Below, in pieces: positions 9,997 through 32,037 of a stretch of DNA of 44,461 nucleotides. A program made the position numbers and the translations under genes. The first letter of the stretch is position 1; each line of letters opens with the position of its first letter. The notes beneath the pieces are model-generated. The model did not search any database. It was not told the DNA's origin and saw only the letters and a list, made by a program, of their open reading frames with translations. This DNA comes from an uncultured Pseudomonadota bacterium (GTDB lineage Bacteria; Pseudomonadota; Gammaproteobacteria; Methylococcales; Methylomonadaceae): positions 1 to 44,461 of the forward strand of contig CAINHO010000046.1 of NCBI GenBank assembly GCA_903848935.1. Reading direction: 5' to 3'.

Positions 9997-10255
9997 GCTG
10001 TAGTAATTTAACAACAATAAATCTAACTTGAAAATCAGCGCGTTATAAAAAATAGTTTTCTTTCATACTGTTACCTGTAATTTGACTGAAATACCATTTT
10101 TCAAACGTGACTCCATTTTTTGAAAAAACTTATCGTGTAACAGTTCAATTTGCGCGAATAAGCGACTGTTTTTGTTGTAAATCGATTTTTGAGATTTTCG
10201 ATTTTAGACGATTCACAACAAAACAACATCATTTTGCAAATCCCCCACAAACAGT
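9997..10255 (-). repeat. about 259-bp intergenic element, copy 1 (inverted relative to copy 2)
   Basis: This fills most of the 428-bp gap between brxP and squalene synthase. Its reverse complement aligns along its full length with 31782-32037 at roughly three quarters identity by eye. The best blocks are GATGTTGTTTTGTTGTGAAT, TTATAACGCGCTGATTTTCA and TTGTTGTTAAATTAC. The ends form an imperfect inverted repeat (CTGT...ATTT at both sides), so it could be a small non-autonomous mobile element, a duplicated promoter region, or an untranslated RNA. No ORF of note is conserved: a tiny ATGAAA(G)... ORF is 7 codons here and 10 in copy 2. Nothing else is seen in the gap except the promoter listed separately. 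Confidence 0.8.
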
Positions 10256-10262
10256 CTATGAT
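10234..10262 (+). promoter_or_regulatory. candidate sigma-70 promoter for the squalene synthase-shc operon
   Basis: TTGCAA (10234-10239) and TATGAT (10257-10262) are separated by 17 bp and point toward the squalene synthase start 54 bp downstream. The -35 box lies inside the intergenic element, on the strand opposite to its hpnH-like orientation. Confidence 0.5.
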
Positions 10263-10316
10263 TGCGCGCATAAAACCTCTTTTTTCAACCCATAAACCGC
10301 GATTTCAAACTTCCAA

Positions 10317-11399
10317 ATGACGAACGAAACCCAAGCCGTTTTAGACAATTCAAAATCGTTGCACGACTTGTCCGATGACCAATTTCAAGCTGTTTTGCTT
10401 GAGGGCGTTTCTCGCACTTTCGCTTTGACGATTCCGCAACTGCCAAAAGTCTTATTTCCAGCGGTCGCCAACGCTTATTTATTGTGTCGCATTGTCGATA
10501 CGATTGAAGATGAAGTGTCGCTTTCGCCTGAACAAAAACGGTATTTTTGCGACGAATTCATCAACGTTGTGAAAACAGGCGAACAATCGGAAATTTTCGC
10601 GTTAGAACTCGCGCCACTTTTGTCAGACCAAACGATTCCTGCGGAACATCAATTGATTCACGTTATTCCACGAGTAATTCAAATCACGCACAGTTTTGAC
10701 CCCGTGCAAGTCAAAGCATTGTCAGAATGTGTTGAAACGATGGCGAAAGGAATGCCGATTTTTCAAGCGCAAAATTTGCACGATGGTTTGGAAACGCTCG
10801 CTGATATGGACAGATATTGCTATTACGTCGCGGGTTGTGTCGGTGAAATGTTGGCGAAATTGTTTTGTCATTATTCGCCTGAAATCGCTAAAAATGAGTC
10901 TGAACTGATGAAATTATCGGTGTCGTTTGGGCAAGGTCTGCAAATGACCAACATTTTGAAAGACATTTGGGACGACGCACAACGGGGCGTGTGTTGGTTA
11001 CCGCAAGATATTTTCACTGAAACGGGTTTTGATTTGAAAAATTTAACGCCTGAAACGAATGATGTGGCATTTAGCGCAGGTTTAGAACATTTAATCAGCG
11101 TCGCACACGAGCATTTGCACAATGCGTTGCGTTACACATTATTGATTCCTTCGCATGAAACGGGGATTCGTAAATTTTGTTTATGGGCGTTAGGCATGGC
11201 GATTTTGACGTTGCGAAAAATCAAAAGTAATTTGAAATTCAATCGTTCTGAACAAGCGAAAATTACCCGCAACAGCGTGAAAGCCACGATTATCAGTACA
11301 AACTTAGCGGTACGCAGTGACTTTTTACTCACTGCCCTTTTCAATGTTGCCAGTCGCGGACTTGTGTCACCTGATTGGACTTACCAAAATAAACCGTGA
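10317..11399 (+). CDS. sqs: squalene synthase (phytoene/squalene synthase family)
   Basis: A protein of 360 residues that condenses two farnesyl diphosphates, here most likely to squalene for hopanoid synthesis. SRTFALTIPQLP (residues 32-43) and the two Mg-binding acidic motifs DTIED (61-65) and DIWDD (216-220) are present. The length, the absence of a partner synthase gene, and the position directly upstream of shc fit a single-enzyme squalene synthase rather than the HpnC/HpnD/HpnE three-enzyme route. The start has no clear ribosome site, but no better in-frame start is available. An 18-bp gap separates it from shc. A phytoene-type product cannot be excluded from sequence alone. Confidence 0.85.
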   Translation: MTNETQAVLDNSKSLHDLSDDQFQAVLLEGVSRTFALTIPQLPKVLFPAVANAYLLCRIVDTIEDEVSLSPEQKRYFCDEFINVVKTGEQSEIFALELAPLLSDQTIPAEHQLIHVIPRVIQITHSFDPVQVKALSECVETMAKGMPIFQAQNLHDGLETLADMDRYCYYVAGCVGEMLAKLFCHYSPEIAKNESELMKLSVSFGQGLQMTNILKDIWDDAQRGVCWLPQDIFTETGFDLKNLTPETNDVAFSAGLEHLISVAHEHLHNALRYTLLIPSHETGIRKFCLWALGMAILTLRKIKSNLKFNRSEQAKITRNSVKATIISTNLAVRSDFLLTALFNVASRGLVSPDWTYQNKP

Positions 11400-11417
11400 T
11401 TTTTAAGGACGACTGTC

Positions 11418-13406
11418 ATGTTTAAAGAATCTCAAGACCACGCTTCACATTCTCCTGCTAGCTCGGCAACGCCCATTCACTCGAAAGCCTACAACTTAGA
11501 CAACGCCATTCAGCACGCCCAAAATAAATTATTAAGTTTGCAAAATGACGCAGGTTATTGGGTATTTGAACTCGAAGCAGACTGCACCATTCCTGCTGAA
11601 TACATCATGATGATGCACTATCTGGGCGACATCGATGAAACCTTACAAGCAAAAATTGCGGTGTATTTACGTTCACGTCAATCGGCAGATGGTAGTTATC
11701 CGTTTTATACGGGCGGAGAGGGTGATATTAGCGGTAGCGTAAAGGTTTATTATGCGTTGAAAATGTCAGGCGACGACATTAACGCGCCACACATGACAAA
11801 ATTGCGTGAATGGATTTTAGCGCAAGGCGGCGCAGCGAAAGCTAACGTTTTCACACGCATTGCACTAGCGACCTTTGAACAATTGCCATGGCGCGGCGTG
11901 CCATATATTCCCGTTGAAATTATGTTATTTCCAAAATGGTTCCCCTTCCATTTAGACAAAGTTTCTTATTGGTCACGCACGGTAATGATTCCATTGTTTA
12001 TTATTTGCACGTTAAAAGCGAAGGCGAAAAATCCAAACAACGTTAGTGTTTTAGAATTGTTCGTAACGCATCCAGATGAAGAACAGCATTATTTTCCTGA
12101 GCGCACAATGCTCAACAAATTCTTTTTAGGTTTAGACAAATTAGGACGAGTTACTCAACCATTGATTCCTAAAAAAGCACACGAACTAGCGATTCAAAAA
12201 GCGCACGATTGGTTTATTGAACGTATGAATGGCGAAGACGGTTTAGGTGCGATTTTTCCTGCAATGGTGAATTCTTACGAAGCATTGCTTTTGCTCGGAT
12301 ATGATAAAAATCACGAATTAGTTTTAACCGCCCGCAAAGCAATTGATAAATTGCTCGTCATCAACGAAAAAGATGCGTATTGCCAACCTTGTTTATCGCC
12401 CGTTTGGGATACGGGGTTGAGTGCATTGGCGTTGGAAGAAGTTCAAAAAACACATCCCCCCCGCCCCCCTTCAAAGGGGGGAGAAACATCACAAAGTTTA
12501 AATCGCGCTTATGAGTGGTTGAAATCCAAACAATTACACGACGAACCAGGCGATTGGCGTATTTCACGTCCGAATGTTAAAGGTGGCGGTGGTTGGGCGT
12601 TTCAATTCAATAACCCACATTATCCTGATGTTGACGATACGGCGGTTGTGGCATTTGCAATGGCAGAATCTGAAAATGCCAAATTGCACGATGCTTCGAT
12701 TCATTCAGCCACGCGCTGGATTATAGAAATGCAATCGAAAAATGGCGGTTATGGCGCATTCGATGTGGATAATACGGCTTATTATTTAAATGAAATTCCG
12801 TTTGCTGATCACGGCGCATTGCTCGATCCGCCAACTTCTGATGTGAGTGCGCGATGTGCGATGTTGATGGCGAAAGTTGCCAAAAATCATCCTGAATATG
12901 CAGAACCATTAAAACGAACAATTGCTTATTTACGCACCGAACAAGAAGCCGATGGCTCGTTTTTTGGACGCTGGGGAACGAATTATGTTTACGGCACTTG
13001 GTCAGTTTTACTGGCATTAGAACAAACCGATTTACCAAAAACGGATCCGATGTACACCAAAGCGGTGGCATTTTTGAAAAGCGTGCAACGTGCAGATGGC
13101 GGTTGGGGCGAAGATAATTACAGTTATCACGATACGAATTACAGCGGCAAATATCAATTTAGCACCGCATTTCAAACAGCATGGGCAGTATTAGCGTTAT
13201 GCGCTGCGGGCGAAGGCAAAAGCCCTGAAGTTAAAGCAGGAATTGATTTTATTCTACGCACGCAACAAGCGGATGGCGTTTGGAATGACAAATGCTTCAC
13301 TGCGCCAGGGTTTCCCAAAGTGTTCTATTTGAAATATCATGGTTACGATAAATTTTTCCCCTTGTGGGCATTGGCTCGCTATCGTAACGAATTGGATAAA
13401 AAGTGA
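11418..13406 (+). CDS. shc: squalene-hopene cyclase
   Basis: A protein of 662 residues that cyclises squalene to hopene at the inner membrane. The catalytic acid motif DVDDTA lies at about residues 404-408, and several QW repeats are visible (GSFFGRWGTNYVYGTW, GGWGEDNYSY, GVWNDK). AAGGA precedes the ATG by about 10 bp. Odd feature: residues about 345-356 (HPPRPPSKGGE) are encoded by a G/C palindrome inserted in frame in a loop between helices, upstream of the AYEWLKSKQ helix. The catalytic parts are intact, so activity is likely. The stop overlaps the hpnG GTG start (GTGA). Confidence 0.97.
   Translation: MFKESQDHASHSPASSATPIHSKAYNLDNAIQHAQNKLLSLQNDAGYWVFELEADCTIPAEYIMMMHYLGDIDETLQAKIAVYLRSRQSADGSYPFYTGGEGDISGSVKVYYALKMSGDDINAPHMTKLREWILAQGGAAKANVFTRIALATFEQLPWRGVPYIPVEIMLFPKWFPFHLDKVSYWSRTVMIPLFIICTLKAKAKNPNNVSVLELFVTHPDEEQHYFPERTMLNKFFLGLDKLGRVTQPLIPKKAHELAIQKAHDWFIERMNGEDGLGAIFPAMVNSYEALLLLGYDKNHELVLTARKAIDKLLVINEKDAYCQPCLSPVWDTGLSALALEEVQKTHPPRPPSKGGETSQSLNRAYEWLKSKQLHDEPGDWRISRPNVKGGGGWAFQFNNPHYPDVDDTAVVAFAMAESENAKLHDASIHSATRWIIEMQSKNGGYGAFDVDNTAYYLNEIPFADHGALLDPPTSDVSARCAMLMAKVAKNHPEYAEPLKRTIAYLRTEQEADGSFFGRWGTNYVYGTWSVLLALEQTDLPKTDPMYTKAVAFLKSVQRADGGWGEDNYSYHDTNYSGKYQFSTAFQTAWAVLALCAAGEGKSPEVKAGIDFILRTQQADGVWNDKCFTAPGFPKVFYLKYHGYDKFFPLWALARYRNELDKK
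12464..12481. repeat. perfect palindrome inserted in the shc coding sequence
   Basis: Arms CCCCCCTT and AAGGGGGG flank a 2-bp centre. The composition is far from the AT-rich surroundings, and it codes PPSKGG, a peptide that typically results from short palindromic repeat elements landing in genes. No second copy was seen in this window. Confidence 0.7.
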
Positions 13407-14143
13407 TTACTGGAATTATCGTTGCCCTTTCTGAAGAACTCAGCACTCTAAAAACTGTCCCAAACGCGCTGTGGGAACGCAGCATGATTCGTGGCAAATT
13501 CATCTTTTTGACCGACGACATCATTTTGATTTATTCGGGCGCAGGGGCAGAAAATGCTCGCAAAGCAGCAGAATTAGCCGTTTCAAAAGGCGCGACAAAA
13601 TTGATGAGTTGGGGTTGTGCAGCAGCGTTAAGTCCCGATTTAAAAATGGGCGATTTGGTTTTAGCCGATAGTTTATTGAATAGTGACGGTTTAGAAATGC
13701 CTGTGAATGCAACGTGGCATCAACACGCAAAAATGGTTTTAGGTTTAGAAGTGGCGGCGTATAAAGGCGCGTTGTTTAATAGTAATACCGTCGTTTCAAC
13801 CGCCGGCGCAAAACAAGAAATTTTCACAAAAACAGGCGCGATTGCGTTAGATATGGAAAGTGGCGCGATTGCTCAAGTTGCACAACATTACGCGCTGCCC
13901 TTTTTAGCGATTCGAACAATTGCTGATCCCTCCTCGATGGATTTACCTAACGCCGTTTTAAAAGCCTTAAACGAAAACGGCGAAATCGAAATCACCAAAA
14001 TCATCGCGTCACTCGTTTTTAATCCCAAAGAAATTCCGCATTTGATTCAACTTGGACAGTATTTTCAGCTCGCTAAAAAGACGCTTTCCACCGTTGCCAA
14101 AAAATTACCCGAAGTCATTGCCTTTAAATCAGTGTCCGCCTGA
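13403..14143 (+). CDS. hpnG: hopanoid-associated phosphorylase HpnG
   Basis: A protein of 246 residues of the nucleoside phosphorylase (PNP/UDP) family. In hopanoid synthesis HpnG removes adenine from adenosylhopane to give ribosylhopane. The family pattern is visible: IYSGAGAENARKAAELAV near the phosphate site, MSWGCAAALSPDLKMGD, and the base/ribose-binding segment ALDMESGAIAQVA (residues 148-160). The GTG start overlaps the shc stop, so it is coupled to shc. It acts on the product of HpnH, encoded 19 kb away in this window. Confidence 0.9.
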   Translation: MITGIIVALSEELSTLKTVPNALWERSMIRGKFIFLTDDIILIYSGAGAENARKAAELAVSKGATKLMSWGCAAALSPDLKMGDLVLADSLLNSDGLEMPVNATWHQHAKMVLGLEVAAYKGALFNSNTVVSTAGAKQEIFTKTGAIALDMESGAIAQVAQHYALPFLAIRTIADPSSMDLPNAVLKALNENGEIEITKIIASLVFNPKEIPHLIQLGQYFQLAKKTLSTVAKKLPEVIAFKSVSA

Positions 14144-14149
14144 TATAAT
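14141..14149 (+). promoter_or_regulatory. candidate extended -10 promoter for hpnN
   Basis: TGATATAAT combines the TGn extension with a perfect -10 hexamer. It overlaps the hpnG stop and lies 39 bp before the hpnN ATG. No good -35 box is seen, as is common for extended -10 promoters. Confidence 0.4.
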
Positions 14150-14187
14150 TCGCGCAATCGTTTTCCCTTTTTGATTGCCCATAATTC

Positions 14188-16791
14188 ATGAATCACCCCC
14201 GTTTTTATTCGCGCCTGTCGCATTGGTGCGAACAACAGATTGTTCACTTTCCTTGGTTTATTGTTTTAGCCGCCGTTTTACTTTGTGCAGGTTCGAGTTA
14301 TTTCGTCTACGAACATTTAACGGTCAATACGAATACCGCCGAAATGTTGTCGCCCGATTTGCCATTTCAACAAAATCAACGTCGCATTGATGAGGCATTT
14401 CCAGCCGATGCTTACACAACGTTGTTTGTGGTCGATGCCAATTCACCCGAAGAAGCGACGCAAAATGCAACTAAATTAGTCAATTTACTTCGCGCCAAAC
14501 CTGACCGTTTCGCGTCGGTTTATATTCCGACGGACAACGATTTTTTTCGTCAGCAAGCATTGTTATATTTAGAAACGCCTGATTTAGAAACCGTCGCCAA
14601 ACAACTCACCGATGCACAGCCGTTTATTGGGTATTTAGCGCAAAATTATTCGCTCGAAGGGCTGTTCGACATTATTCAAAAAGCGTTAAACGAAAAAGAA
14701 AATGCGTTGCCAATGGATTTAAATCCGTTATTGCTCGCAGTCGATAACACGATTAACGCGCAACTCGATGGCAAATCGTCCGCGCTTTCATGGCAAACGT
14801 TGTTAGCAAATAACAAACTTAACGACGATGCCAAACGGGTGTTAATTGTGGCAAAACCTGTGGTGCATTTTGACGAAATGTTGCCCGTCGATGCGGCGCA
14901 AGCCGCCGCGCATGAAGTCGCCAATAAAATCATGAACGAAAATTCAACTGTGCGTGTTCGGATTACGGGCGAAAGTGCGTTGGAACATGAAGAACTCGAA
15001 AGCGTCAGCAGCGGTGCAGAATTCGCTGGCATTGCGTCGTTGATTTTAGTTTTTGCGGTGCAGTGGATTGGCTTTCATTCGTTGCGCTTGCTGGTGATTA
15101 CTTACATCGTTTTGATTATGGGGCTAATTTTAACGGCAGGTTTTGCAGCGATTACGGTTGGACATTTGAACGTGATTTCGATTGCGTTTGCCAGTTTATA
15201 TATTGGTTTGGGCGTGGATTACGCGGTGCATATTTGTTTGTATTATCGGGAACGCAAAGCGCGTGGTTACTCGAATCTCGAGGCAATTCACCACAGCATG
15301 AGCGGTGTCGGTTCGTCGTTATTTTTGTGTGCATTGACGACAGCGTTAGGATTTTTAGCGTTTATTCCGACTGATTACGCAGGCGTTTCAGAACTCGGGA
15401 TTATTTCAGGCGGCGGGATTTTTATTGGACTGATTATTTCTCTGACGGTTTTACCTGCGTTACTTTGCATTTTGCCTGTGAATAATCCGAAGCCGATTAA
15501 ATCAGCGTTCGCGCCACAATTTATCGTCACGTTTCCGTTTCATTACGCAAAATCCATTCGGGTGGTGTCGATTTTATTGGCAATTGGCGCGTGTGGCATT
15601 TTGACCAATTTAACGTTCGATGCAAATCCGATTAACTTGCGCGATCCGCAAAGTGAATCCGTTTCAACCATTAAAGATTTATTGAAATCTAAAAATGATT
15701 CGCCGTTTGCTGTGACGGGTTTGGCGAATAATTTGGACGAGGCGAATGCGTTGGCGGCAAAAATGAAAACCCTGCCCGCCGTTCATGAAACGATTACGTT
15801 AAGTAGTTTTGTGGCTGAAAATCAAAACGAAAAATTGGCGATTATCGACGATTTGAATTTGATGCTTGGCAATCAGCTCGAAAATTTCAACGTCACGTTG
15901 CCTGAAAATCATGAACAACGCGCCGCGCTGGTGAAATTTAATGAGCAATTGAAACGGGCGATTACCGATAAAACACCCAATGCGCGGCTTGAAATGCTCG
16001 AAAAATTACAAAGTCACATTGAAATTTTTTTACACGAGCATAACGATGAACCTGCGATTTACGCACAATTTGAAAAAAATGTGTTAGGTTTATTGCCTTA
16101 TACGTTGGAACGTTTGCGAACCAGTTTAAGTGCGACGGCGTTTGATTTAGCCTCGATTCCAGAAGAAATGCGTTCGCATTGGGTCAATAAAAATGGGTTG
16201 TATAAAGTGCTGATTACGCCTGCGAAAGACCAAAACGTTGAAGCCAATATGAAAGAATTTGTTGAACAAATTAAAGGCGTAGATAACGCCGTTTCTGGTT
16301 TGCCGATTGCGAATGAAGCCGGTGGCGATGCAGTCGTGAAAGCATTTTTGCAAGCCTTCGGAGGCGCATTTACTGCAATTACGTTGTTGCTTTGGGCGAT
16401 TTATCGTCGTTTTTCACACATGGCAATTGTGATTGCACCGTTGATGTTAGCGGCTTTGTTGACGGGAGCAATGAATGTCTTGCTGGATAATCCGTTCAAT
16501 TTTGCGAACGTGATTGCGTTGCCGTTGTTGCTCGGAATGGGGATTGATAGCAGTATTTTAATCATGCACCGCCTGCATTTTAATAAAAACGAAGACGAAA
16601 ATCTGTTGCATAGCAGCACGACGCGGGGGATTATTTTTAGTTCGATTACCACGTTGTGTAGTTTTTCGAGTTTGTCATTTACCCATCATCAAGGCATGGC
16701 AAGTATGGGATTATTGCTGTCGATTGGGTTATTTTTTACGGTGATTTGTTCGTTGATTGTGTTGCCTGCTTGGAGCGGGAAGAGGGTTTGA
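14188..16791 (+). CDS. hpnN: hopanoid transporter HpnN (RND/MMPL family)
   Basis: A protein of 867 residues of the RND superfamily that moves hopanoids toward the outer membrane. The layout is typical: a transmembrane helix near residue 25, a long periplasmic domain, a block of about five helices (from IASLILVFAVQWIGF through VHICLYYRERKARGY to LIISLTVLPALLCIL), a second periplasmic domain, and a final helix block (AFTAITLLLWAIYRR to VICSLIVLPAW). GLGVDYAVHI and GMGIDSSILIMHR are the two conserved Asp-containing helix-4 segments of the MMPL/HpnN group. It lies in the cluster between hpnG and the accessory insertion; hpnO follows after about 1.3 kb. Confidence 0.92.
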   Translation: MNHPRFYSRLSHWCEQQIVHFPWFIVLAAVLLCAGSSYFVYEHLTVNTNTAEMLSPDLPFQQNQRRIDEAFPADAYTTLFVVDANSPEEATQNATKLVNLLRAKPDRFASVYIPTDNDFFRQQALLYLETPDLETVAKQLTDAQPFIGYLAQNYSLEGLFDIIQKALNEKENALPMDLNPLLLAVDNTINAQLDGKSSALSWQTLLANNKLNDDAKRVLIVAKPVVHFDEMLPVDAAQAAAHEVANKIMNENSTVRVRITGESALEHEELESVSSGAEFAGIASLILVFAVQWIGFHSLRLLVITYIVLIMGLILTAGFAAITVGHLNVISIAFASLYIGLGVDYAVHICLYYRERKARGYSNLEAIHHSMSGVGSSLFLCALTTALGFLAFIPTDYAGVSELGIISGGGIFIGLIISLTVLPALLCILPVNNPKPIKSAFAPQFIVTFPFHYAKSIRVVSILLAIGACGILTNLTFDANPINLRDPQSESVSTIKDLLKSKNDSPFAVTGLANNLDEANALAAKMKTLPAVHETITLSSFVAENQNEKLAIIDDLNLMLGNQLENFNVTLPENHEQRAALVKFNEQLKRAITDKTPNARLEMLEKLQSHIEIFLHEHNDEPAIYAQFEKNVLGLLPYTLERLRTSLSATAFDLASIPEEMRSHWVNKNGLYKVLITPAKDQNVEANMKEFVEQIKGVDNAVSGLPIANEAGGDAVVKAFLQAFGGAFTAITLLLWAIYRRFSHMAIVIAPLMLAALLTGAMNVLLDNPFNFANVIALPLLLGMGIDSSILIMHRLHFNKNEDENLLHSSTTRGIIFSSITTLCSFSSLSFTHHQGMASMGLLLSIGLFFTVICSLIVLPAWSGKRV

Positions 16792-16837
16792 TTATGGCGA
16801 AATTAACTTTTTTACAATTTACACAAAGGGGATTTTT

Positions 16838-17500
16838 ATGACAGAACATAAAACACGCAAAACATCTTCAACAGTTGATTTCTTCGCTAAATACAAAGAC
16901 CCTCGTTGGCAGAAAAAACGCCTTGAAGTCATGCAACACGCTGGTTTTCGATGTGAAAGCTGTGAATCAGAAGAGAAAACTCTCAATGTTCACCACAAGT
17001 CATACAAGAAAAATCATAATCCGTGGGATTATAAAATTTATGAATTGGAATGTTTGTGTGAAGACTGTCACAGTGAAAAACATGGAATAAAAGACAGGCT
17101 TACTGATGCACTTCATGATTTCAAGGTTTGTCCTTGCTTTGAAAATCCAGATGAAGAACTTTTAGGATTTCTAGATGGTAAGTTGACAGTCGCAGTTATT
17201 GAAAGTATCCCAACCTCTTACGAATATTTGCGGGGTTATTGTGCTGCTCATTTATTGGATGTAGATGAAATAAATAAAGATGGAAAACTTGATGAAATTA
17301 TCGATGCTAATAATGGTTTTCTCGATAGTAACATGTTCTGTTGGGCATTCATGTCATGCACAATTTCTGAAAAATGGCATGCCGAATATGAGAAAAGGAA
17401 CATTGTGACTGGTGTATATTCTCACTACCCCAGCTGGCTAATGGAGCAAATTCTAAAACAAGTAGCTCAAGTATTAGAGGACGATACAACTGCCCCGTAA
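16838..17500 (+). CDS. HNH endonuclease-like protein in the hopanoid cluster
   Basis: A protein of 220 residues starting at 16838, chosen because AAAGGGG precedes that ATG. The N-terminal part holds DPRWQKKRLEVMQHAGFRCE, then CESCESEEKTLNVHHKS and CEDCHSEKHG, an HNH metal site with two CxxC knuckles. The C-terminal 130 residues are acidic and unrecognised. The fold resembles the small HNH protein at 2018, but the sequences are not close copies. Nothing links it to hopanoids. It sits just before the duplicated hpnO start and probably entered with the neighbouring DUF4160-DUF2442 insertion. Substrate unknown. Confidence 0.75.
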   Translation: MTEHKTRKTSSTVDFFAKYKDPRWQKKRLEVMQHAGFRCESCESEEKTLNVHHKSYKKNHNPWDYKIYELECLCEDCHSEKHGIKDRLTDALHDFKVCPCFENPDEELLGFLDGKLTVAVIESIPTSYEYLRGYCAAHLLDVDEINKDGKLDEIIDANNGFLDSNMFCWAFMSCTISEKWHAEYEKRNIVTGVYSHYPSWLMEQILKQVAQVLEDDTTAP

Positions 17501-17530
17501 TTTCTCAAAAACTCACATAAGCCCAAGCTC

Positions 17531-17832: not shown

Positions 17833-17835
17833 TCA

Positions 17836-23014: not shown

Positions 23015-23459
23015 CGTGTAAATTCGCAATCACATCGTTAAATTCGCTCACGTCTTCAAAACTCCGGTAGACCGATGCAAATCGGACGTAAGCCACATGG
23101 TCTAAGTTTCGCAATTCGTTCATCACTTTTTCACCCAAAAATTGACTGGCAACTTCACTGTCTGATTTTCCAATTAAACTGCGTTTGATTCGGCTGATGG
23201 CTTGTTCAACAGATTCACGATTAACAGGGCGTTTTTCTAGGGCTTTTATAAAACCTGAGCGCAATTTCCCATCGTCAAATGGTTCGCGTGTGCCGTTATG
23301 TTTCACCACGTCGGGCAATTGTAATTCGGCCACTTCGTAAGTCGTGAAACGCGCTTTGCACACCACACATTCACGGCGGCGGCGAACTTGATCACCTTCG
23401 TGGGCGAGACGTGAATCTAAAACACGAGTTTCGTGTTCTGCACAAAATGGACAACGCAT
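23004..23459 (-). CDS. nrdR: transcriptional repressor NrdR
   Basis: A repressor of 151 residues for ribonucleotide reductase genes. It has the N-terminal zinc ribbon [17 protein letters not shown] ... [13 protein letters not shown] and the ATP-cone domain from about residue 48 ([20 protein letters not shown]). Typical length. Overlaps the ribD start. The first gene of this pair is preceded by a 44-bp gap after the aspartic protease. Confidence 0.97.
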
Positions 23460-23503
23460 AATTAAATCCTAAAACAAAAAATCCTAAAAAATTTCCACAT
23501 GAT

Positions 23504-24034
23504 TCACTGTTCGGAAAGGTGCATTTCGCCGTTACGTTGTTCGATGTTGAATTTTTGCAAGACACTCATGCCGAGTAACGGCAAAGTAGCTAGATTGGAC
23601 GCAATATGAACTTCGACGTTTTTTAATTCAAAGGGTGCGATGGTTAGCTTTGATACATAAGCAACGCAATCTTGAACTTTTCCGTTCGCTGTATTCATTG
23701 TGACGAATATGCCTGTACAAGTAATTTTTGTTTTCTCGGCAAGTTGTTTCGACAACACAACAAAGGATGCTCCGGTATCAATCAGAAAGGGAAATTTAAC
23801 GCCATTTATTTCGGCGTTAATCAGATAATGTCCATTATCAACGTGTTTGAGCGTGATTTGCTTACGCTCGACGATGGGCAAATTCACTTTCACTTCGGTC
23901 TGCTTGTTTTCGATACACGGTGAATTTTGATATTTTGCATCACGTCCATCGGTCAAACATTTGTAAATTTCGGCCGTTGCGACAGGGCTAAAAACGCTCA
24001 TCACCAAAATCAGTAACTGCGTTTTTGCCTTCAC
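23504..24034 (-). CDS. secreted retropepsin-like aspartic protease with DUF4124-like N-terminus
   Basis: A protein of 176 residues. A signal peptide (MKAKTQLLILVMSVFSPVATA) is followed by a short DUF4124-like segment (EIYKCLTDGRDAKYQNSPC) with two cysteines, and then a clan AA protease domain with the catalytic FPFLIDTGASFVVLS and the structural LPLLGMSVLQKF turn. Only one DTG is present, so it should act as a homodimer, as in retroviral proteases. It follows bamC with one base between them (stop 24036, start 24034), so it may share the dapA-bamC transcript. The substrate is unknown; a periplasmic quality-control role is a guess. Confidence 0.8.
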   Translation of the reverse strand: MKAKTQLLILVMSVFSPVATAEIYKCLTDGRDAKYQNSPCIENKQTEVKVNLPIVERKQITLKHVDNGHYLINAEINGVKFPFLIDTGASFVVLSKQLAEKTKITCTGIFVTMNTANGKVQDCVAYVSKLTIAPFELKNVEVHIASNLATLPLLGMSVLQKFNIEQRNGEMHLSEQ

Positions 24035-24035
24035 G

Positions 24036-24749
24036 TTATTTACTCAAATCGACTTTAATTGCCTCGAATAAAATCATCAGCACTTTATTATCCGTGCCAT
24101 CGGTGAATGGATGTAATTCGGGATTTAAAACAGTGACAGCCGTTTTTGCATCCGATTCGTGGAATTGCAAAACGTAGCGTTGTTCATTTTCAGCGAACGG
24201 ATTAAACACAGAAACCGTATTATCCCAAAGTGATTTTTCGGGTTCAGCTTTCGGTTTTGAATCGGCAATTTGAATGTAAATTTGTCCGCTGTCTTGATTA
24301 CGATTCGTGATTTCGATGTTGCTGCGACTTAACGCTTTGCCGACAATTCGCCACGCTCGCACTGACGGCACATTCAAATTCAAAGTGGGTGCGTTTTCGT
24401 GCGTCAAACTGACTTGAATTTCGTTGCGCGACAATTCGGTTTCAGCATCGGCAAGCGGGGGACGATTTACCATTGGCGCGGTTTTTTCAATCGCAGGTGC
24501 AATCGTTTTCACCGCAGATTTTTGGTGTGTTATCGGTTCGACTTCTTTGGCAACGATTGGTTCAACAGGCGCAGTGCGTGTGGGTAACGATGGTTTTTGA
24601 ACTAAACCGGGTGGGATTACGAGCGGCGGTAATTCGGTGGTGAATTGGTAGTCTTTTTCTTTGTCGGGAAACCAACTTTGAAGCGTACTGCAACCATTTA
24701 CGCTTAAACCGCAAGCGATTAGAAAACTAACTCGTAATGACCTTTTCAT
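24036..24749 (-). CDS. bamC: outer membrane assembly lipoprotein BamC
   Basis: A lipoprotein of 237 residues. The signal peptide ends in the lipobox SVNGC, and a proline-rich unstructured stretch follows (YQFTTELPPLVIPPGL), which in BamC binds BamD. One helix-grip domain is recognisable in the second half (PSVRAWRIVGKALSRSNIEI onward). The E. coli protein is about 100 residues longer and has two such domains, so this is a short form. It follows dapA with 1 bp between them, the standard gammaproteobacterial arrangement. Confidence 0.88.
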   Translation of the reverse strand: MKRSLRVSFLIACGLSVNGCSTLQSWFPDKEKDYQFTTELPPLVIPPGLVQKPSLPTRTAPVEPIVAKEVEPITHQKSAVKTIAPAIEKTAPMVNRPPLADAETELSRNEIQVSLTHENAPTLNLNVPSVRAWRIVGKALSRSNIEITNRNQDSGQIYIQIADSKPKAEPEKSLWDNTVSVFNPFAENEQRYVLQFHESDAKTAVTVLNPELHPFTDGTDNKVLMILFEAIKVDLSK

Positions 24750-24750
24750 T

Positions 24751-25626
24751 TTAAATCACACCTGCTTGACGCATGGCTTCGCGCACGGCTTCTTCACATT
24801 CGAGCGTGAGCCACGTCAAAGGCAAACGAATACCTTTTTGCATCAAACTCATTTCGACCACCGCCCATTTCACTGGAATTGGATTGGCTTGAATAAATAA
24901 ACGGCTGTGCAATGCGTCGAGTTTGCGATCTATTTCGGCGGCTGTTTTCGTATCACCCGCGATTGCCGCCATAATCATTTCGTGTACCAAACGTGGCGCA
25001 ACATTGCCGGTGACGGTAATCGTTCCATTGCCGCCTAATAAACAAAATTCACGGCTGCTCGCATCATCGCCCGTGTAAATGGCAAAATCAGACGACGTTA
25101 AATCACGCAATTTTGTTACCCGCGTTAAATCACCGGTCGCTTCTTTTACACCGACAATGTTCGAAATTTTCGCCAACCGCCCAACCGTTTCGGGCAACAT
25201 ATCGCAAGCGGTTCGACCTGGAACATTGTATAAAATTTGTGGAATATCGACGGCTTCGGCAATCGCTTTGTGATGTAAATACAAACCTTCTTGCGTGGGT
25301 TTGTTGTAATACGGCGTAACAATTAAACACGCATCCGCCCCTAATTCTTTGGCGTGGCGTGTTAAGTTAATCGCTTCGGAAGTTGAATTTGAACCCGTAC
25401 CCGCAATTACTGGAATGCGTCCAGCGACGTTATCGACAACGAATTTAATCACTTGGCAATGTTCAGTTTCACTCAATGTCGCGGATTCGCCTGTCGTGCC
25501 GACAGCGACTAAAGCGTCTGTACCTTGCTCAATATGAAACTCTATTAAACGCGCCAAACTGTCAAAGTCTACAGCACCTTGATTGTCCATTGGGGTGACT
25601 AATGCGACGATACTACCTTGAATCAT
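24751..25626 (-). CDS. dapA: 4-hydroxy-tetrahydrodipicolinate synthase
   Basis: A TIM-barrel aldolase of 291 residues, first step of the lysine/diaminopimelate branch, condensing pyruvate with aspartate semialdehyde. Visible: GTTGESATLSETEH near residue 43, the catalytic Tyr in ILYNVPGRTACDM, and the Schiff-base Lys in IVGVKEATGDLTR near residue 161. Length is normal. It heads the dapA-bamC-protease run and is divergent from deaD, with a promoter candidate on each strand in the gap. Confidence 0.97.
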   Translation of the reverse strand: MIQGSIVALVTPMDNQGAVDFDSLARLIEFHIEQGTDALVAVGTTGESATLSETEHCQVIKFVVDNVAGRIPVIAGTGSNSTSEAINLTRHAKELGADACLIVTPYYNKPTQEGLYLHHKAIAEAVDIPQILYNVPGRTACDMLPETVGRLAKISNIVGVKEATGDLTRVTKLRDLTSSDFAIYTGDDASSREFCLLGGNGTITVTGNVAPRLVHEMIMAAIAGDTKTAAEIDRKLDALHSRLFIQANPIPVKWAVVEMSLMQKGIRLPLTWLTLECEEAVREAMRQAGVI

Positions 25627-25667
25627 GAAAGCTCTCGATGGGTTGAAAGTGAAATTTTTGTTGACGC

Positions 25668-25673
25668 ATTATA
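25668..25673 (-). promoter_or_regulatory. candidate -10 box for dapA
   Basis: TATAAT on the minus strand (ATTATA on plus), 42 bp before the dapA ATG. The upstream -35 region is weak. Confidence 0.4.
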
Positions 25674-25725
25674 ACAAGCAAATCCTTGAAAATGCCTAAA
25701 TTAGCAGAATAGGGCGTAAATGCGT

Positions 25726-25731
25726 TATAAT
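25726..25731 (+). promoter_or_regulatory. candidate -10 box for deaD
   Basis: TATAAT lies 67 bp before the deaD ATG with a TTAGCA at 25701 as a poor -35. The transcript would carry a leader with a small GCGC/GCGC inverted repeat, which could matter because deaD-type genes are often controlled through long leaders. Confidence 0.4.
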
Positions 25732-25797
25732 TCAAACATCAAAACGAATACCCTCCCCGCGCAATCGCGCATTCTCATATTTTACAGCAGGTAAATC

Positions 25798-27648
25798 ATG
25801 TCTGAAGAAACAACTCCGTTATTGTCATTTCGTGACTTAGGAATTATTGAACCCTTACTTAAAGCTCTTAAAGATGTTGGTTACGAAACCCCGTCACCGA
25901 TTCAAGCTCAAACAATCCCATTCATTCTCGATGGCAAAGATGTTTTAGGTCAGGCGCAAACTGGCACAGGTAAAACGGCGGCATTCGCGTTACCCATTTT
26001 GTCGCGCATCGATTTGAAACAAAAAGATCCCCAAGTTTTAGTATTAGCTCCGACGCGCGAATTAGCGATTCAAGTCGCAGAAGCCTTTCAACGTTATGCG
26101 TCACATTTAAAAGATTTTCATGTGTTGCCCATTTACGGCGGACAAGATTACAGCACGCAATTACGTTCGTTGAAACGTGGCGCACATGTTGTTGTTGGCA
26201 CGCCAGGTCGTGTGATGGATCACATGCGAAAAAACACGTTGTCGTTGGCTAATTTGAAATTTTTAGTTCTCGACGAAGCTGACGAAATGTTACGCATGGG
26301 CTTTATCGATGACGTGGAATGGATTTTAGAGCAAACGCCTGACAACCGTCAGATTGCATTATTCTCTGCGACAATGCCAAGCGTCATTCGCAAAATTACT
26401 GAAAAATATCTCAACAAACCTGAACACGTTACGATTAAAGTCACCACCGCATCGGCTGAAAATATCCGTCAACGTTATTGGTTGGTCAGCGGCGTGCATA
26501 AACTCGATGCGTTGACACGCATTTTGGAAGCGGAAACGTTCGACGGTATGATTATTTTCGTGCGGACGAAAACCGCCACGATTGAACTCGCTGAAAAATT
26601 AGAAGCACGTGGATATTCTGCGGCAGCAATTAACGGCGATATGTCGCAAAACTTGCGTGAACGTGCGATTAACCATTTGAAAAATGGCAAACTCGACATT
26701 TTGATTGCGACAGACGTAGCGGCGCGTGGTTTGGACGTGGACAGAATCACTCACGTTTTAAACTACGATATTCCTTACGACACCGAATCGTATGTGCATC
26801 GTATCGGTCGTACCGGTCGTGCGGGTCGTACGGGTGACGCGATTTTGTTTATTGCACCGCGTGAACGTAAATTACTCGCCAATATCGAACGCGCCACTAA
26901 ACAAAAAATTGAAGAGATGGGTTTGCCGTCTACTGAAATTATCAACAACAAACGGATTGCCCGTTTCAAACAAAACATTACCGATACATTGGCGGCAGAA
27001 GAATTAAGTTTCTTTGCTCAATTGATTCAACAATACGAAACCGAACACGATGTAACGGCATTGGAAATCGGCGCGGCATTAGCGAAATTAGTACAAGGTG
27101 ATGATCCGTTGTTAATGGCTCCGCCTAAAAAAGTGTCGGAACGTGACCGCGAACGTGACGAACGTCCACGTCGTGACCGTGACGATTCAAGTCGTGGACG
27201 CGGTGACAGAAATGAACGTCCAAGACGTGAATCAAGTGACCGTCCTGAACGTCGTCCAAAACGTGACTTCGGTTCGTCAAACATCGAAATGGAAACTTTC
27301 CGTATCGAAGTCGGTAACGCACACGGTGTAAAAGCGGGCAATATCGTCGGTGCAATTGCCAATGAAACTGGCATCGAAGGCGCACACATTGCACGAATTC
27401 GCATCGAAGAAGATTACAGCACAGTTGAATTACCTGCTGGAATGCCGAAAGAATTGTTAAACGAGTTACGCAAAGTGCGAGTTGCGGGACAATTGTTGAA
27501 CATTTCTAGCGTATCAGGTGGCAGTAAACCTGAAGGCAAATCGGAAGGTCGTAAAACGTTGAAATTCGACGATAACAAACCGAAAGATAAAGACAAAAAA
27601 CGCATGGGTTCAACCTCGCGTCGCGGAAAAGAATTTAAAGACGCATAA
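25798..27648 (+). CDS. deaD: DEAD-box RNA helicase DeaD/CsdA
   Basis: A protein of 616 residues. The helicase core has AQTGTGKTAAF, PTRELAIQV, VLDEADEML, SAT and HRIGRTGRAGRTG. A C-terminal extension follows, and then an Arg/Asp-rich, low-complexity linker (about residues 443-495) that should be disordered and bind RNA. The DbpA-type RNA-binding domain comes next (ETFRIEVGNAHGVKAGNIVG). A second charged tail ends the protein. This layout is that of cold-shock helicase CsdA, which acts in ribosome assembly and mRNA decay. AGGTAA precedes the start. A strong terminator follows. Confidence 0.95.
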   Translation: MSEETTPLLSFRDLGIIEPLLKALKDVGYETPSPIQAQTIPFILDGKDVLGQAQTGTGKTAAFALPILSRIDLKQKDPQVLVLAPTRELAIQVAEAFQRYASHLKDFHVLPIYGGQDYSTQLRSLKRGAHVVVGTPGRVMDHMRKNTLSLANLKFLVLDEADEMLRMGFIDDVEWILEQTPDNRQIALFSATMPSVIRKITEKYLNKPEHVTIKVTTASAENIRQRYWLVSGVHKLDALTRILEAETFDGMIIFVRTKTATIELAEKLEARGYSAAAINGDMSQNLRERAINHLKNGKLDILIATDVAARGLDVDRITHVLNYDIPYDTESYVHRIGRTGRAGRTGDAILFIAPRERKLLANIERATKQKIEEMGLPSTEIINNKRIARFKQNITDTLAAEELSFFAQLIQQYETEHDVTALEIGAALAKLVQGDDPLLMAPPKKVSERDRERDERPRRDRDDSSRGRGDRNERPRRESSDRPERRPKRDFGSSNIEMETFRIEVGNAHGVKAGNIVGAIANETGIEGAHIARIRIEEDYSTVELPAGMPKELLNELRKVRVAGQLLNISSVSGGSKPEGKSEGRKTLKFDDNKPKDKDKKRMGSTSRRGKEFKDA

Positions 27649-27660
27649 AACGTCACACAT

Positions 27661-27697
27661 AAAAAAAGCCGATACGCAAAAACGTATCGGCTTTTTT
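27661..27697. terminator. bidirectional rho-independent terminator between deaD and rpmE
   Basis: Stem GCCGATACG (27668-27676), loop CAAAAA, stem CGTATCGGC (27683-27691), with an A-run before and a T-run after, so it works for both convergent genes. Confidence 0.95.
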
Positions 27698-27712
27698 ATT
27701 GATAATAATAAA

Positions 27713-27913
27713 TTATCTGGCGAATCTTTTGTTGAATTTATCAACACGACCAGCTGTGTCTACAACGCGTTGTTTCCCTGTATAGAAAGGGTGGCAAGAA
27801 GAGCAAACTTCGATGTTTAAGTCTTTAGCCAACGCAGAACCGGTCACAAAAGTATTACCGCAACCACAAGTGACGGTAATTTGTTTATAATTAGGATGAA
27901 TTTCTGGTTTCAT
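27713..27913 (-). CDS. rpmE: 50S ribosomal protein L31
   Basis: The start at 27913 ([16 protein letters not shown]) gives 66 residues; an in-frame extension of seven codons is not needed by the family. The zinc-binding cysteines are present (VTCGCGNTF and [13 protein letters not shown]), so this is the zinc-containing C+ form of L31. Convergent with deaD across the shared terminator and divergent from xthA. Confidence 0.95.
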
Positions 27914-28003
27914 GATTTTTCGCATTGCCCACAACGGGCGGTTGATATTAAAAATGCGTATTTTACGGACTTAACTCACAATTCGCAATGGATTCAAACT
28001 TTT

Positions 28004-28771
28004 ATGCGTATTATTACTGTCAATACAAACGGAATTCGCTCGGCTGAACGCAAAGGTTTTTTTGCGTGGTTGAGCGAACAAAATGCCGATGTGGTTTGCA
28101 TTCAAGAAACCAAAGCCCAACTGTCACAGCTAGCCGAAAATATTTTCTGCCCCGCGCCGTATCACTGTTTTTATCACGATGCCGAAAAAAAAGGTTACAG
28201 TGGCGTTGCGCTTTATTGTAAAACCAAACCCGACGAAGTTATTCATGGAATCGGCATCGAAGACATTGACCGCGAAGGGCGTTTTATCGAAGCACGATTC
28301 GGAAATTTAAGTGTGATTTCGCTGTATTTACCTTCGGGTTCGTCAGGTGAAGAACGGCAAACCTTTAAATTTAGTGTGTTAGAACGGTTCGCCGAGTATT
28401 TAAAAACTTGCGCTTCAAACGGACGTGACACCATAATCTGCGGCGATTGGAACATTGCTCATAAAGCGATTGATTTAAAAAATTGGCGCGGCAATCAAAA
28501 AAATTCGGGATTTTTACCCGAAGAACGCGCTTGGTTGGATACTGTTTTTGCGGACGAAAAATGGTTTGATGCGTTTCGCTTAGTTAACCAAGATGCTGAA
28601 CAATACACATGGTGGTCAAATCGCGGGCAATCGTGGGCAAAAAATGTCGGTTGGCGCATCGATTACCAAATTATTAGCGCGTCACTGCAACACAAAGTGA
28701 CAGCCGCCACCATTTACAAAGACGAGCGTTTTTCCGATCACGCACCACTCATTATTGATTACAACGATTAA
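28004..28771 (+). CDS. xthA: exodeoxyribonuclease III
   Basis: A protein of 255 residues from ATG 28004; the longer frame runs back into the rpmE promoter area and is rejected. AP endonuclease/exonuclease III family motifs: ITVNTNGIRSAERKGFF, VVCIQETKAQ with the metal-binding Glu, ICGDWNIAHK with the catalytic Asp/Asn, WRIDYQI, and the final FSDHAPLIIDY. Repairs abasic sites. The following gene starts 9 bp downstream. Confidence 0.93.
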   Translation: MRIITVNTNGIRSAERKGFFAWLSEQNADVVCIQETKAQLSQLAENIFCPAPYHCFYHDAEKKGYSGVALYCKTKPDEVIHGIGIEDIDREGRFIEARFGNLSVISLYLPSGSSGEERQTFKFSVLERFAEYLKTCASNGRDTIICGDWNIAHKAIDLKNWRGNQKNSGFLPEERAWLDTVFADEKWFDAFRLVNQDAEQYTWWSNRGQSWAKNVGWRIDYQIISASLQHKVTAATIYKDERFSDHAPLIIDYND

Positions 28772-28779
28772 AAGAATTC

Positions 28780-29583
28780 ATGTCGAACACTTCAGCTAAA
28801 AAGGCAACCACTATGCGTAACGTCACGTTATTTGAATCCGAAAATCACCGTTTCATTTTGCTCAATGAAAGTGAACCTGGCGAAGAGGACGGCATTCGTT
28901 CGAATCAATATCTCATTACGCATCGTGACGAAGGGGTTTTGCTTGATCCAGGTGGTTTTGGCGTGATGCCGCGCGTGTTAGCGGAAATGTTGCGTTATAT
29001 CGAACCGAATCAAATTAAGGGAATTTTTTTGTCGCACCAAGATCCTGACATTGTCGGCGGACTTTCAACATGGTTAGAACTGTGTCAGTCGCCTGTTTAT
29101 GTTTCTAGTATTTGGATTCGTTTTTTGCCGCATTACGGTTTGAAAGACATGGTGCGATTTGTCGGCGTGCCGAATGAAGGTATGGTTTGGAATGAAGGCG
29201 GCGAATTTAATTTAAAAATCGTTCCCGCACATTTTCTACATTCCGAAGGACAAATTAACGTCTACGATCCGATTTCAAAAATTTTATTCACCGGTGATAT
29301 TGGCGCGGCGATGATGTTGGACGACGAAGATTATATTTTTGTCGATGATTTTGAAGCGCATATTTCGCATATTGAAGATTTTCATCGCCGTTATATGTGT
29401 TCCAACAAAGCGATTTTATGCTGGCTCGAAACAATTAAGGAACTTGATATTGAAATTCTCGCGCCGCAACACGGCCCAATTTATCGTGGTAAAGCCGTAC
29501 AGGAATTTTTCGATTGGTTTAGAGAATTGCAATGCGGCGTAGATTTAATGCAGCCGTTTGGACATTTTCCGCAAAAAGGCTAA
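28780..29583 (+). CDS. ODP-type diiron metallo-beta-lactamase-fold protein
   Basis: A protein of 267 residues, or 256 from the ATG at 28813, which has AAGG upstream. The metal ligands expected of flavodiiron/ODP domains are present: HxDxD-like SHQDPDIVGG (His86, Asp88, Asp90), AHFLHSEG (His151, His154), TGDIG (Asp173) and APQHGPIYRG. There is no flavodoxin domain, so it is a stand-alone oxygen-binding diiron protein rather than an FprA reductase. Such ODP proteins serve as O2, NO or redox sensors or scavengers next to signalling proteins. The next gene, a GGDEF-EAL protein, starts 4 bp after its stop, which supports a sensor role. Confidence 0.8.
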   Translation: MSNTSAKKATTMRNVTLFESENHRFILLNESEPGEEDGIRSNQYLITHRDEGVLLDPGGFGVMPRVLAEMLRYIEPNQIKGIFLSHQDPDIVGGLSTWLELCQSPVYVSSIWIRFLPHYGLKDMVRFVGVPNEGMVWNEGGEFNLKIVPAHFLHSEGQINVYDPISKILFTGDIGAAMMLDDEDYIFVDDFEAHISHIEDFHRRYMCSNKAILCWLETIKELDIEILAPQHGPIYRGKAVQEFFDWFRELQCGVDLMQPFGHFPQKG

Positions 29584-29587
29584 CGCC

Positions 29588-31756
29588 ATGAATTACACCA
29601 ATCATTTAGAAGAATTACGTTTTAATTTCGTTAATCAGATTACTGAAATTTTAGAAAATCAAACCCGCACGCAACGTTATTCCGTCAATAACATTGATTT
29701 AACGCACAACGTTAGCGATGAAATTATTGGAAAATTACAAACAGGTTTGCACGCTGAAACGCTAGCCGACACAAAAGTCGCTATGAAAAGTGCGATGCAA
29801 AGTTGTGAGCGAATGAATAAAAGTTTGGGTTTGCTGTTTGAACAGTATAAAAAACAACAGGCATCGAATCGAACCCGTATTCAAGAAGTGATTGTGGAAT
29901 TCAATCACGCGCTGCACGCTTTGTCGTCGGTACTGATTGAAAAAGATTTACTTGAACGTCAAAGCAAAGTGCTTGAAAGTATTATTTTGTCGCACGAACA
30001 CGTTTCGCAATGGAAGGAATTTGTCCAAGAAATTCTGGTAGATTTTCACAGTATTTTTCCGTTTAACTTTTTTTATATTGCCTTTGCCGAAGAACACGGT
30101 TTATCGCTGTATTTGTATATGTTGGGGCAATACAGCCCTGAAACGATGAAAGAAGCGCGGCAAAAACTCAGTCTGCAAATGATTGAAAGTATTGGCTTGC
30201 CAAAAGATGCGGTGCTGGATATTGAAGAATTTGTTGTGCCGTGTGATAACGCCAACTTTGTGAATAGCCAACTCGACATTAAGATGATTAGCGTTCCGGT
30301 GGCAGATCAATCCACGAATTTGGCGGGATTGCTTGGGGTCGCGTATGCGTCGAATCATAAAATTTCAGCCCAAGAAGAAAGTGTGATTCGGGCGATTTTA
30401 TCTGTGATGGTCATGGTCGTCGGTTCGAGTAAAACCTTGTCGCGTACGTTGTTGGAACTCGAATACTACGCACTTCACGACCCATTAACCGGACTATATA
30501 ACCGCCGCCAGTTCAATGACATTTTGGAATACGAAGTCGAACGTTGTGAACGTCATAATCATGAATTCAGTGTGCTGATGATTGATTTGGATAATTTCAA
30601 AGACATCAATGATTCATTCGGGCATCCAACAGGTGATTCCGCATTGCAAACGATTGCCGATGTTTTACGCAAACATACTCGCAAAGGCGATTTGTGTGCG
30701 CGAATTGGTGGCGATGAATTTGCGATTATCTTGGTCGAAACGGGCGCAGAAAGTGGTCATATTGTTGCCGAAGCGATGTCGAAAACGTTGCGTGAAACAG
30801 CATTGGCTTCGACACAAGGTGATCGCTATCATTTAACAATGTCGATTGGATTAAGTTGTTATCCACAAGATGCAAAAACGGCGGATGAGTTAATGGCTGG
30901 CGTTGACGTGGCGATGTATCGTGCTAAAGCGTTAGGCAAAGATGGCGTGTGTTTAGTTCAATCTATCGAAGAGCGCGTCAACATTCGTGAAACCCGCCAT
31001 CAAGTTGAAGAGTTGCGTGACGCGCTGCAAGATAATCGAATTGTGCCTTATTACCAATCGATTGTGGATTGCAAAACGGGTGAAGTCATGGCATTTGAAA
31101 CGTTGGCGCGATTAAAAACGCTCGATGGCGAAACACGTTCGGCAGCAATGTTTATTGAAACGATTGAAAAATATGGATTATCGCGTGATTTAGATCGCGT
31201 GATGATTACCAATTCGTTGGAGGCAAAACGTGCATTGATTAAAGCCAATGCACCTGAAGCGAAGGCGAAAATTTTTATCAATTTATCCGTGCAAGAAATC
31301 CAAGGACGTGGAATTTTGGGATTTGCTGAAGAAATGTGTCAGCAAATGGAAGTGCCACCGGAACAAATTGTGTTTGAGCTTTTGGAGCGTGATGCGATTG
31401 GTGACATGACGAATATGCGAAAATTTTTGAATAATTTACGCGCTAAAGGTTTTTCGTTTGCGTTGGATGATTTTGGAAGTGGTTATAACTCGTTTCATTA
31501 TTTGCGGGATTTACATTTTGAATTTGTGAAAATTGACGGTGCATTTGTTCGCAACATTATGAGTTCCAAGTTGGATTACGCACTGGTGCATAATTTATCA
31601 CGGTTGTGCCAAGATATTGGGATGTTGACGATTGCGGAATTTGTGGAAAACGAAGAAATTTTGTTGGCGTTACAAGATATGGGCATCAATTATGTACAGG
31701 GTTATCACGTCAGTATGCCGATTTCTGAAATGCGAATGACGGAAAGAAAGCGATAA
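29588..31756 (+). CDS. GGDEF-EAL c-di-GMP turnover protein
   Basis: A protein of 722 residues from ATG 29588. Residues about 1-135 are helical and may bind a partner; about 140-290 looks like a GAF-type sensor. The GGDEF domain has DPLTGLYNRRQF and an intact ARIGGDEFAIIL (about residue 370). The EAL domain reads FETLARL in place of EALLR but keeps the ExLxR pattern, with INLSVQEIQ, ELLERDAIGD, DDFGSGYNSFHYL, KIDGAFVRN and EFVENEEIL, so both activities look possible. No transmembrane helix is seen. Translationally close to the ODP gene, which probably feeds it the signal. Confidence 0.9.
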   Translation: MNYTNHLEELRFNFVNQITEILENQTRTQRYSVNNIDLTHNVSDEIIGKLQTGLHAETLADTKVAMKSAMQSCERMNKSLGLLFEQYKKQQASNRTRIQEVIVEFNHALHALSSVLIEKDLLERQSKVLESIILSHEHVSQWKEFVQEILVDFHSIFPFNFFYIAFAEEHGLSLYLYMLGQYSPETMKEARQKLSLQMIESIGLPKDAVLDIEEFVVPCDNANFVNSQLDIKMISVPVADQSTNLAGLLGVAYASNHKISAQEESVIRAILSVMVMVVGSSKTLSRTLLELEYYALHDPLTGLYNRRQFNDILEYEVERCERHNHEFSVLMIDLDNFKDINDSFGHPTGDSALQTIADVLRKHTRKGDLCARIGGDEFAIILVETGAESGHIVAEAMSKTLRETALASTQGDRYHLTMSIGLSCYPQDAKTADELMAGVDVAMYRAKALGKDGVCLVQSIEERVNIRETRHQVEELRDALQDNRIVPYYQSIVDCKTGEVMAFETLARLKTLDGETRSAAMFIETIEKYGLSRDLDRVMITNSLEAKRALIKANAPEAKAKIFINLSVQEIQGRGILGFAEEMCQQMEVPPEQIVFELLERDAIGDMTNMRKFLNNLRAKGFSFALDDFGSGYNSFHYLRDLHFEFVKIDGAFVRNIMSSKLDYALVHNLSRLCQDIGMLTIAEFVENEEILLALQDMGINYVQGYHVSMPISEMRMTERKR

Positions 31757-31781
31757 AATCCATATCAGTTTTTACCGTAAA

Positions 31782-32037
31782 ACTGTGGGGATTTGCAAAA
31801 GGATGTTGTTTTGTTGTGAATCGTAGAAAATCGAAAACATCAAAAATATATTTTCAATAAAAACAGCAGGTTATTCGCACAAACTAAACGGATACACGAT
31901 AAAATTGGACAAACGCTGGAGTCGGGCTTGAAAAAAGGGTATTCTAATAAAATTGCAGGTAAGCGTATGAAAGCAAACTATTTTTTTATAACGCGCTGAT
32001 TTTCAAATTAGATTGCTTGTTGTTAAATTACGACAGC
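31782..32037 (+). repeat. about 256-bp intergenic element, copy 2, leader of hpnH
   Basis: This fills most of the 311-bp gap between the GGDEF-EAL gene and hpnH. It matches the reverse complement of 9997-10255 along its whole length, with scattered substitutions and small indels. The 3' end (GTTGTTAAATTAC) lies about 30 bp before hpnH. Outside the two boundaries the flanks show no similarity. A 10-codon ORF (MKANYFFITR) preceded by AGGTAA is present, but its reading frame is not conserved in copy 1. No other gene was seen in the gap. Confidence 0.8.

Follow-up and report, generated by a model that had tools for sequence, protein, structure and literature searches.

Two copies of one intergenic region lie beside operons of hopanoid genes

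We analyzed a 44,461-nucleotide stretch of DNA (the window; GCA_903848935.1, contig CAINHO010000046.1, C46 of 51 contigs) from the genome of a methane-consuming Methylomonadaceae bacterium, G000 (2.4 Mb, 90.82% complete), in which two operons holding hopanoid genes each lie beside a copy of the same intergenic region, here called E. Hopanoids are bacterial membrane lipids and geological biomarkers. The first operon begins with the squalene synthase gene sqs (10317..11399, plus strand; PF00494, with a TIGR01559 match below cut-off), followed by shc, hpnG and hpnN (11418..16791, plus; TIGR01507, TIGR03468, TIGR03480). The second begins with the radical SAM gene hpnH (32068..33168, plus), named from its PF04055 and PF11946 domain pair and its hopanoid neighbours rather than from an HpnH model, and continues with mlaC-like and mlaA-like genes (33183..34665, plus; PF05494, PF04333).

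An earlier note, made from the sequence alone, had described a pair of roughly 255-bp intergenic elements in inverted orientation, and BLAST recovers this pair: 9997-10245 on the minus strand (copy S, between an sspD-like gene and sqs) matches 31787-32037 on the plus strand (copy H, the hpnH leader), the two being 83% identical across some 250 bases (E 8.8e-68). The note's figure of about 75% identity was therefore too low, while its ends were well placed, as similarity fades near them in the pairwise alignment. A repeat search of the window resolved the pair into three inverted-arm segments: 152 nt (81% identity), 56 nt (93%) and 55 nt (84%). Among the 30 own-genome matches listed, the next is far weaker (E 0.158), leaving two clear copies. 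Homology starts inside the predicted sqs promoter and ends some 30 nt upstream of the hpnH start. The CTGT/ACAG ends of the copies are alike over only 4–5 nt, and no target-site duplication was seen when the flanks were inspected by eye. Copy S is oriented away from sqs, and the copies therefore point in opposite directions relative to their own genes.

Aligned with 15 intact regions from relatives, copy S retains the sqs promoter side. A consensus scan predicts an sqs promoter, TTGCAA-N17-TATGAT, at 10234..10262 (plus), one of 4 sites in the region against 1.3 expected. Just upstream of its -35 lies a site we call O1 (TGTTGTTTTGTTG; 10216..10228, minus), followed by a middle element, M (AAAAACAG..TTATT; 10157..10173, minus), and, at the far end, by a second site, O2 (TGTTGTTAAATTACTACA; 9999..10016, minus). 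In copy H, the same order gives O1 as the far site (31804..31816, plus), M (31859..31875, plus), a conserved CTGGAGTC...GGGTATTCTA stretch that may be the hpnH promoter or an activator region (31916..31946, plus), and O2 within the hpnH leader (TGTTGTTAAATTACGACA; 32018..32035, plus). A short leader peptide considered in the hpnH leader was set aside, its frame not being kept (by eye).

E is the shared intergenic region of divergent operons in relatives

All 17 other genomes of the genus match the repeat. In 15 of the 18 genus genomes it occurs as one copy, a complete region of 353–376 nt (start codons included) between divergent sqs and hpnH genes, with E directly before hpnH. The contact with hopanoid genes that the earlier note remarked on is thus ancestral, and its option of a duplicated regulatory region gains support, since the single copy in relatives is the region that the two divergent operons share. 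Each of the 18 genomes has one sqs match, truncated by a contig end in G008, and one hpnH match.

The same divergent pair is present at 82 of 117 further loci; another 33 have no sqs in the stretch examined and 2 are arranged otherwise. These loci comprise 12 from relative matches, 80 kept of 583 relatives in an hpnH scan, and 25 more; some represent the same genome twice and five are genus members. Adding the genus rows gave 80 distinct regions, 65 of them outside the genus. Among 45 divergent loci, the sqs promoter box is found in 37 with at most 4 mismatches and in 39 with at most 6; in many relatives it reads TTGCAA-N17-TATTAT in the sqs direction (by eye). Within the putative hpnH promoter region, CTGGAGT and GTATTCTA occur in 15/15 intact regions and TATTCTA in 42 of the 65 distinct regions outside the genus. 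A simple promoter consensus scan does not list this stretch, and we infer its promoter role. Judged by its sequence, E is a conserved intergenic region between divergently transcribed operons, a candidate divergent promoter region with predicted promoters.

Three genomes have separated the operons and hold two copies of E

In the remaining three genomes, G000, G008 and G017, the operons are split, lying 21.5 kb apart or on different contigs, and each stands beside its own copy of E. G008 and G017 are draft bins with contamination of 5% and 4%; each contig alone shows E without the partner gene. The neighbours of the copies are sspD-like and GGDEF-EAL genes in G000, recQ-like and PAS sensor-like genes in G017, and, in G008, a mutY-like gene and one for a DUF5765 protein. 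A tblastn search of 1.1–1.3 kb next to each of the six copies detected no remnant of the missing partner gene (best E 0.26), and the copies end close to O1 and O2.

The earlier note had also proposed that the pair could drive inversion of the DNA between its copies. Inverting the segment would indeed restore the ancestral divergent pair; the inversion itself was not observed, and the inner gene order shows other rearrangement. Six relative contigs that include the end of the EAL gene were inspected; this end adjoins nrdR or ribD in 3 of them and E in none, and therefore at least one more rearrangement took place. A single 21.5 kb inversion, considered as the sole event, does not by itself explain the gene order inside the segment. 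As a separate observation, the block from 23504 to the EAL gene (within 23459-31756) is inverted relative to nrdR/ribD when compared with G001, G007 and G008.

Idle predicted promoters decay while the outer sites are retained

Each split copy was scored over those alignment columns in which at least 80% of the 15 intact regions agree. For the sqs promoter, the S copies retain 26, 27 and 26 of 28 columns, against 17, 15 and 9 in the H copies (17/28 in the window), where its -10 part is lost (by eye). Of the 67 columns in the hpnH promoter region, each H copy retains 65; the S copies retain 59 (window), 38 (G017) and 32 (G008). M retains 13/13 columns in all six. The site next to the absent partner is also retained: far O2 in the S copies keeps 14 (window, where there is no hpnH), 15 and 15 of 15 columns, and far O1 in the H copies keeps 17 (window), 13 and 16 of 17.

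We compared the far site with the idle promoter using one-sided Fisher tests. With the S copies pooled, far O2 keeps 44/45 columns versus 129/201 for the idle promoter (p = 4.7e-7); with the H copies pooled, far O1 keeps 46/51 versus 41/84 (p = 4.1e-7). Taken singly, the S copies give p = 0.48 (window), 0.0006 (G017) and 0.00008 (G008), and the H copies p = 0.002, 0.11 and 0.00004 in the same order. The length between CTGG and O2 is also kept, at 100 and 101 nt in the S copies of G017 and G008, compared with 100–102 nt in intact regions.

Sequence and spacing of O1 and O2

The exact O1 pattern TGTTGTTTTRTTG occurs twice in G000, once in each copy. Since a reversed control pattern occurs 4 times in this genome, the count is not unusual, only the places are. 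For O1, the 14-mer ATGTTGTTTTGTTG is present in 15/15 intact regions. Allowing at most 2 mismatches, O2 has 14 matches in 11 of the 18 genomes. One match, in G006, lies outside E; the other 13 are in E, and each split genome has exactly two. A reversed O2 control gives 9 matches in the genus. A diverged O2 is found in the seven genomes without a match and in E of G006. In many genomes the two sites have a TGTTGTTTTRT core in common. Family-wide sites were picked by this core, so independent evidence comes only from the flanking columns, which differ between O1 and O2. O2 tends toward dyad symmetry, with 3.8 of 6 pairs versus 2.4 for 241 other TGTTG sites, a comparison that is partly circular as one arm position was used in choosing the sites.

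The distance between O1 and O2 is 211–214 bp in all six split copies and 211–215 bp in 13 of 15 intact regions. The other two, G009 and G010, have 190 and 191 bp, a change of about two helical turns. The intergenic regions of these two genomes (L184 and L173) carry a deletion of about 22 nt between the sites.

Number of split events

In the rpoB tree, G000 groups with G001, G003 and G011, G017 with G004, and G008 with G002 and G015, and all of these partners are intact. Three groupings were tested with rpoB, which rejects a single origin of all three splits as well as G000+G017 and G008+G017; G000+G008 was outside this set. Taking the rpoB tree as history, three separate split events would be required. 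For sqs, to which G008 supplies only 198 nt, the approximately unbiased (AU) test rejects all three together (0.0115) and G000+G017 (0.0252), the Shimodaira-Hasegawa (SH) test rejects neither (0.133 and 0.216), and neither G008+G017 nor G000+G008 is rejected. hpnH rejects no grouping of the split genomes (p-AU 0.19 to 0.62; one origin, p-AU 0.33), and a single clade of S copies is likewise not rejected (p-AU 0.196). Both hpnH and sqs reject the rpoB grouping G000+G001+G003+G011 (bootstrap proportions by resampling of estimated log-likelihoods, bp-RELL, 0.0008 and 0). Because both genes conflict with rpoB, lineages may have exchanged hpn loci. Thus, more than one split event is likely and three are possible. 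A stronger proposal is that three lineages separated the operons independently and duplicated E each time, the reason being that neither operon can do without the two outer sites at a fixed distance, as in a repression or activation loop that still works with one promoter left. This can be put forward only tentatively, and we regard it with some doubt.

A proposed shared control region needed whole by both operons

The explanation that we favor, and hold to be probable, is that E is a divergent control region with two sites, that neither operon can do without either site, and that the region was duplicated when the operons separated. The ancestry of E, its duplication, the unequal decay of the copies and the retention of sites and spacing can be read from the aligned sequences. 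From them we infer promoters, a regulator that would bind O1 and O2, a need of both operons for both sites, and joint control; the regulator would probably act on the two sites cooperatively or through a short DNA loop. Under this proposal, a single ancestral E would have lain between divergent sqs-shc-hpnG and hpnH-mlaC-mlaA operons, carrying the predicted sqs promoter at one end, the middle element, the putative promoter region of hpnH toward the opposite end, and TGTTG-type O1 and O2 sites about 212 bp apart. The operons would then have moved apart with E duplicated and one copy kept per operon, and each copy would have lost the promoter of its absent partner but preserved the middle element and the two sites at their original spacing. 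If the postulated regulator binds O1 and O2 and sets both promoters, lineages in which both operons held the whole unit after rearrangement may have persisted as the idle promoters decayed; this selective reason, like the loop, is a proposal.

The model would be consistent with joint induction by methanol in Methylomonas sp. DH-1, provided that its sqs is the hopanoid-linked one. There, methanol brings a 3.4- to 6.4-fold rise in hopanoid genes and a 5.7-fold rise in a gene called sqs, which may not be the hopanoid-linked one (PMC6373157). Among the papers listed in literature searches, including those on hopanoid gene control in methanotrophs, none was about region E by its title or the start of its abstract.

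Several observations count against this explanation. Two of the six single-copy tests are not significant: the hpnH region in the window's copy S has barely decayed (59/67), so that O2 is uninformative there on its own (p = 0.48), and O1 in copy H of G017 is weak (13/17, p = 0.11). The Fisher tests, moreover, take columns as independent and copies were pooled. The 3' parts of O1 and O2 differ (AAT versus ACA). Distances between the sites (72 of the 80 distinct loci) cluster, but no peak singles out the helical period of 10.5 bp, the phasing statistic R being 0.43 at 10.5 bp, 0.57 at 11.0 and 0.55 at 12.5. Finally, O2 can form a weak hairpin, and its retention in the S copies could serve the end of the neighbouring gene.

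The same data can be read as neutral leftovers, with duplication accompanying the rearrangement (for example, an inversion with a duplicated breakpoint) and the far half of each copy not yet erased. The little-decayed copy S of the window would fit, as would the inverted orientation in which its two copies flank the segment, and one report describes duplication with inversion in bacteria (PMC8963470). The S copies of G017 and G008 are harder to accommodate, having lost roughly half of the columns conserved from CTGG to O2 (38 and 32 of 67 left) yet keeping O2 at 15/15 and the length of that stretch, and we regard neutral persistence as unlikely. An equally unlikely history is that the whole locus was duplicated, or a second hpn locus acquired, and that one sqs operon and one hpnH operon were then lost reciprocally. 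The copies within G000 are only 83% identical to one another, compared with 88% between copy H and the G011 region, and the conflict of the hpnH and sqs trees with rpoB points the same way; set against these are the absence of partner remnants from the 1.1–1.3 kb searched beside the six copies, their ends close to O1 and O2, and a core tree that joins both G000 copies with G001, G003, G011 and G004, with weak support.

The earlier note had listed a structured RNA and a non-autonomous mobile element as further options, and neither fared well. A structured leader or riboswitch would suit the position of copy H before hpnH and the short stem that O2 can form. It is very improbable given that there is no Rfam match, that both-side changes occur in only 4 of 46 predicted pairs, that the folding z for the hpnH leader is -0.86 (hpnH-sense strand only), and that copy S reads away from sqs. 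For a small mobile element inserted near hopanoid genes, two copies in inverted orientation and short CTGT/ACAG ends could be cited. We give this option almost no credence: the region is the native divergent intergenic region of relatives, a search for more copies found only the two clear ones in the genome and no dispersal, no plasmid matched, the genus full-length matches followed up all lie at hpn loci, and neither the 4–5 nt of end similarity nor the flanks (by eye) bear the marks of transposition.

Other features of the window

The neighbour of copy S was previously called brxP; it matches SspD far better (E 6.6e-69) than BrxP (E 6.6e-4). It belongs to remnants of an SspBCD-like defence island at 411-9888 (minus), consisting of sspC-like pieces (411-1070 and 6627-7814), an SspB-like gene (8041-8922) and the SspD-like gene (9334-9888), which has an in-frame stop. 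A short BrxL-like gene lies within the island at 4210-5139. At 1150-1584 (minus) is an IS605 OrfB helix-turn-helix fragment that also matches Cas12f models. The gene after hpnN (16757-17500, plus) has a weak match, far below cut-off (E 7.6e-5), to the RNA-guided endonuclease IscB, and a relative at 66% identity also follows hpnN in G007. A tandem array with a 63-nt period occupies 44016-44456 at the contig end.

Comparison with known systems

The split genomes amount to a natural promoter dissection that shows which parts of E each operon may need, and E offers defined candidate sites that are directly testable in cultured Methylomonas. Three known phenomena resemble parts of this picture. DNA duplication associated with inversion (DDAI) is reportedly known from Helicobacter work by Furuta in 2011. 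In Thermus strain 15W, one of the breakpoints of a 128 kb DDAI inversion falls within the first 22 bp of an arsR-family gene, next to the aioB-arsR intergenic region (PMC8963470). The orientation of the window copies, inverted at both ends of a segment whose inversion would restore the ancestral pair, would fit DDAI; orientation is testable in one of the three split cases. Unlike DDAI, a single inversion leaves the internal gene order of the segment unexplained, and the window copies are old (83% identity) and decayed in complementary parts.

Regulatory elements can also follow duplication, degeneration and complementation. Similar to that course, two copies of E each lose complementary parts, but only the promoters are partitioned, and both copies keep the outer sites. 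Lastly, the lac, ara and gal systems have two-operator control regions with DNA looping. E likewise has two similar sites that flank predicted promoters at a near-constant distance; in contrast to those systems, its regulator and loop are only postulated, and the constancy of its spacing is purely evolutionary.

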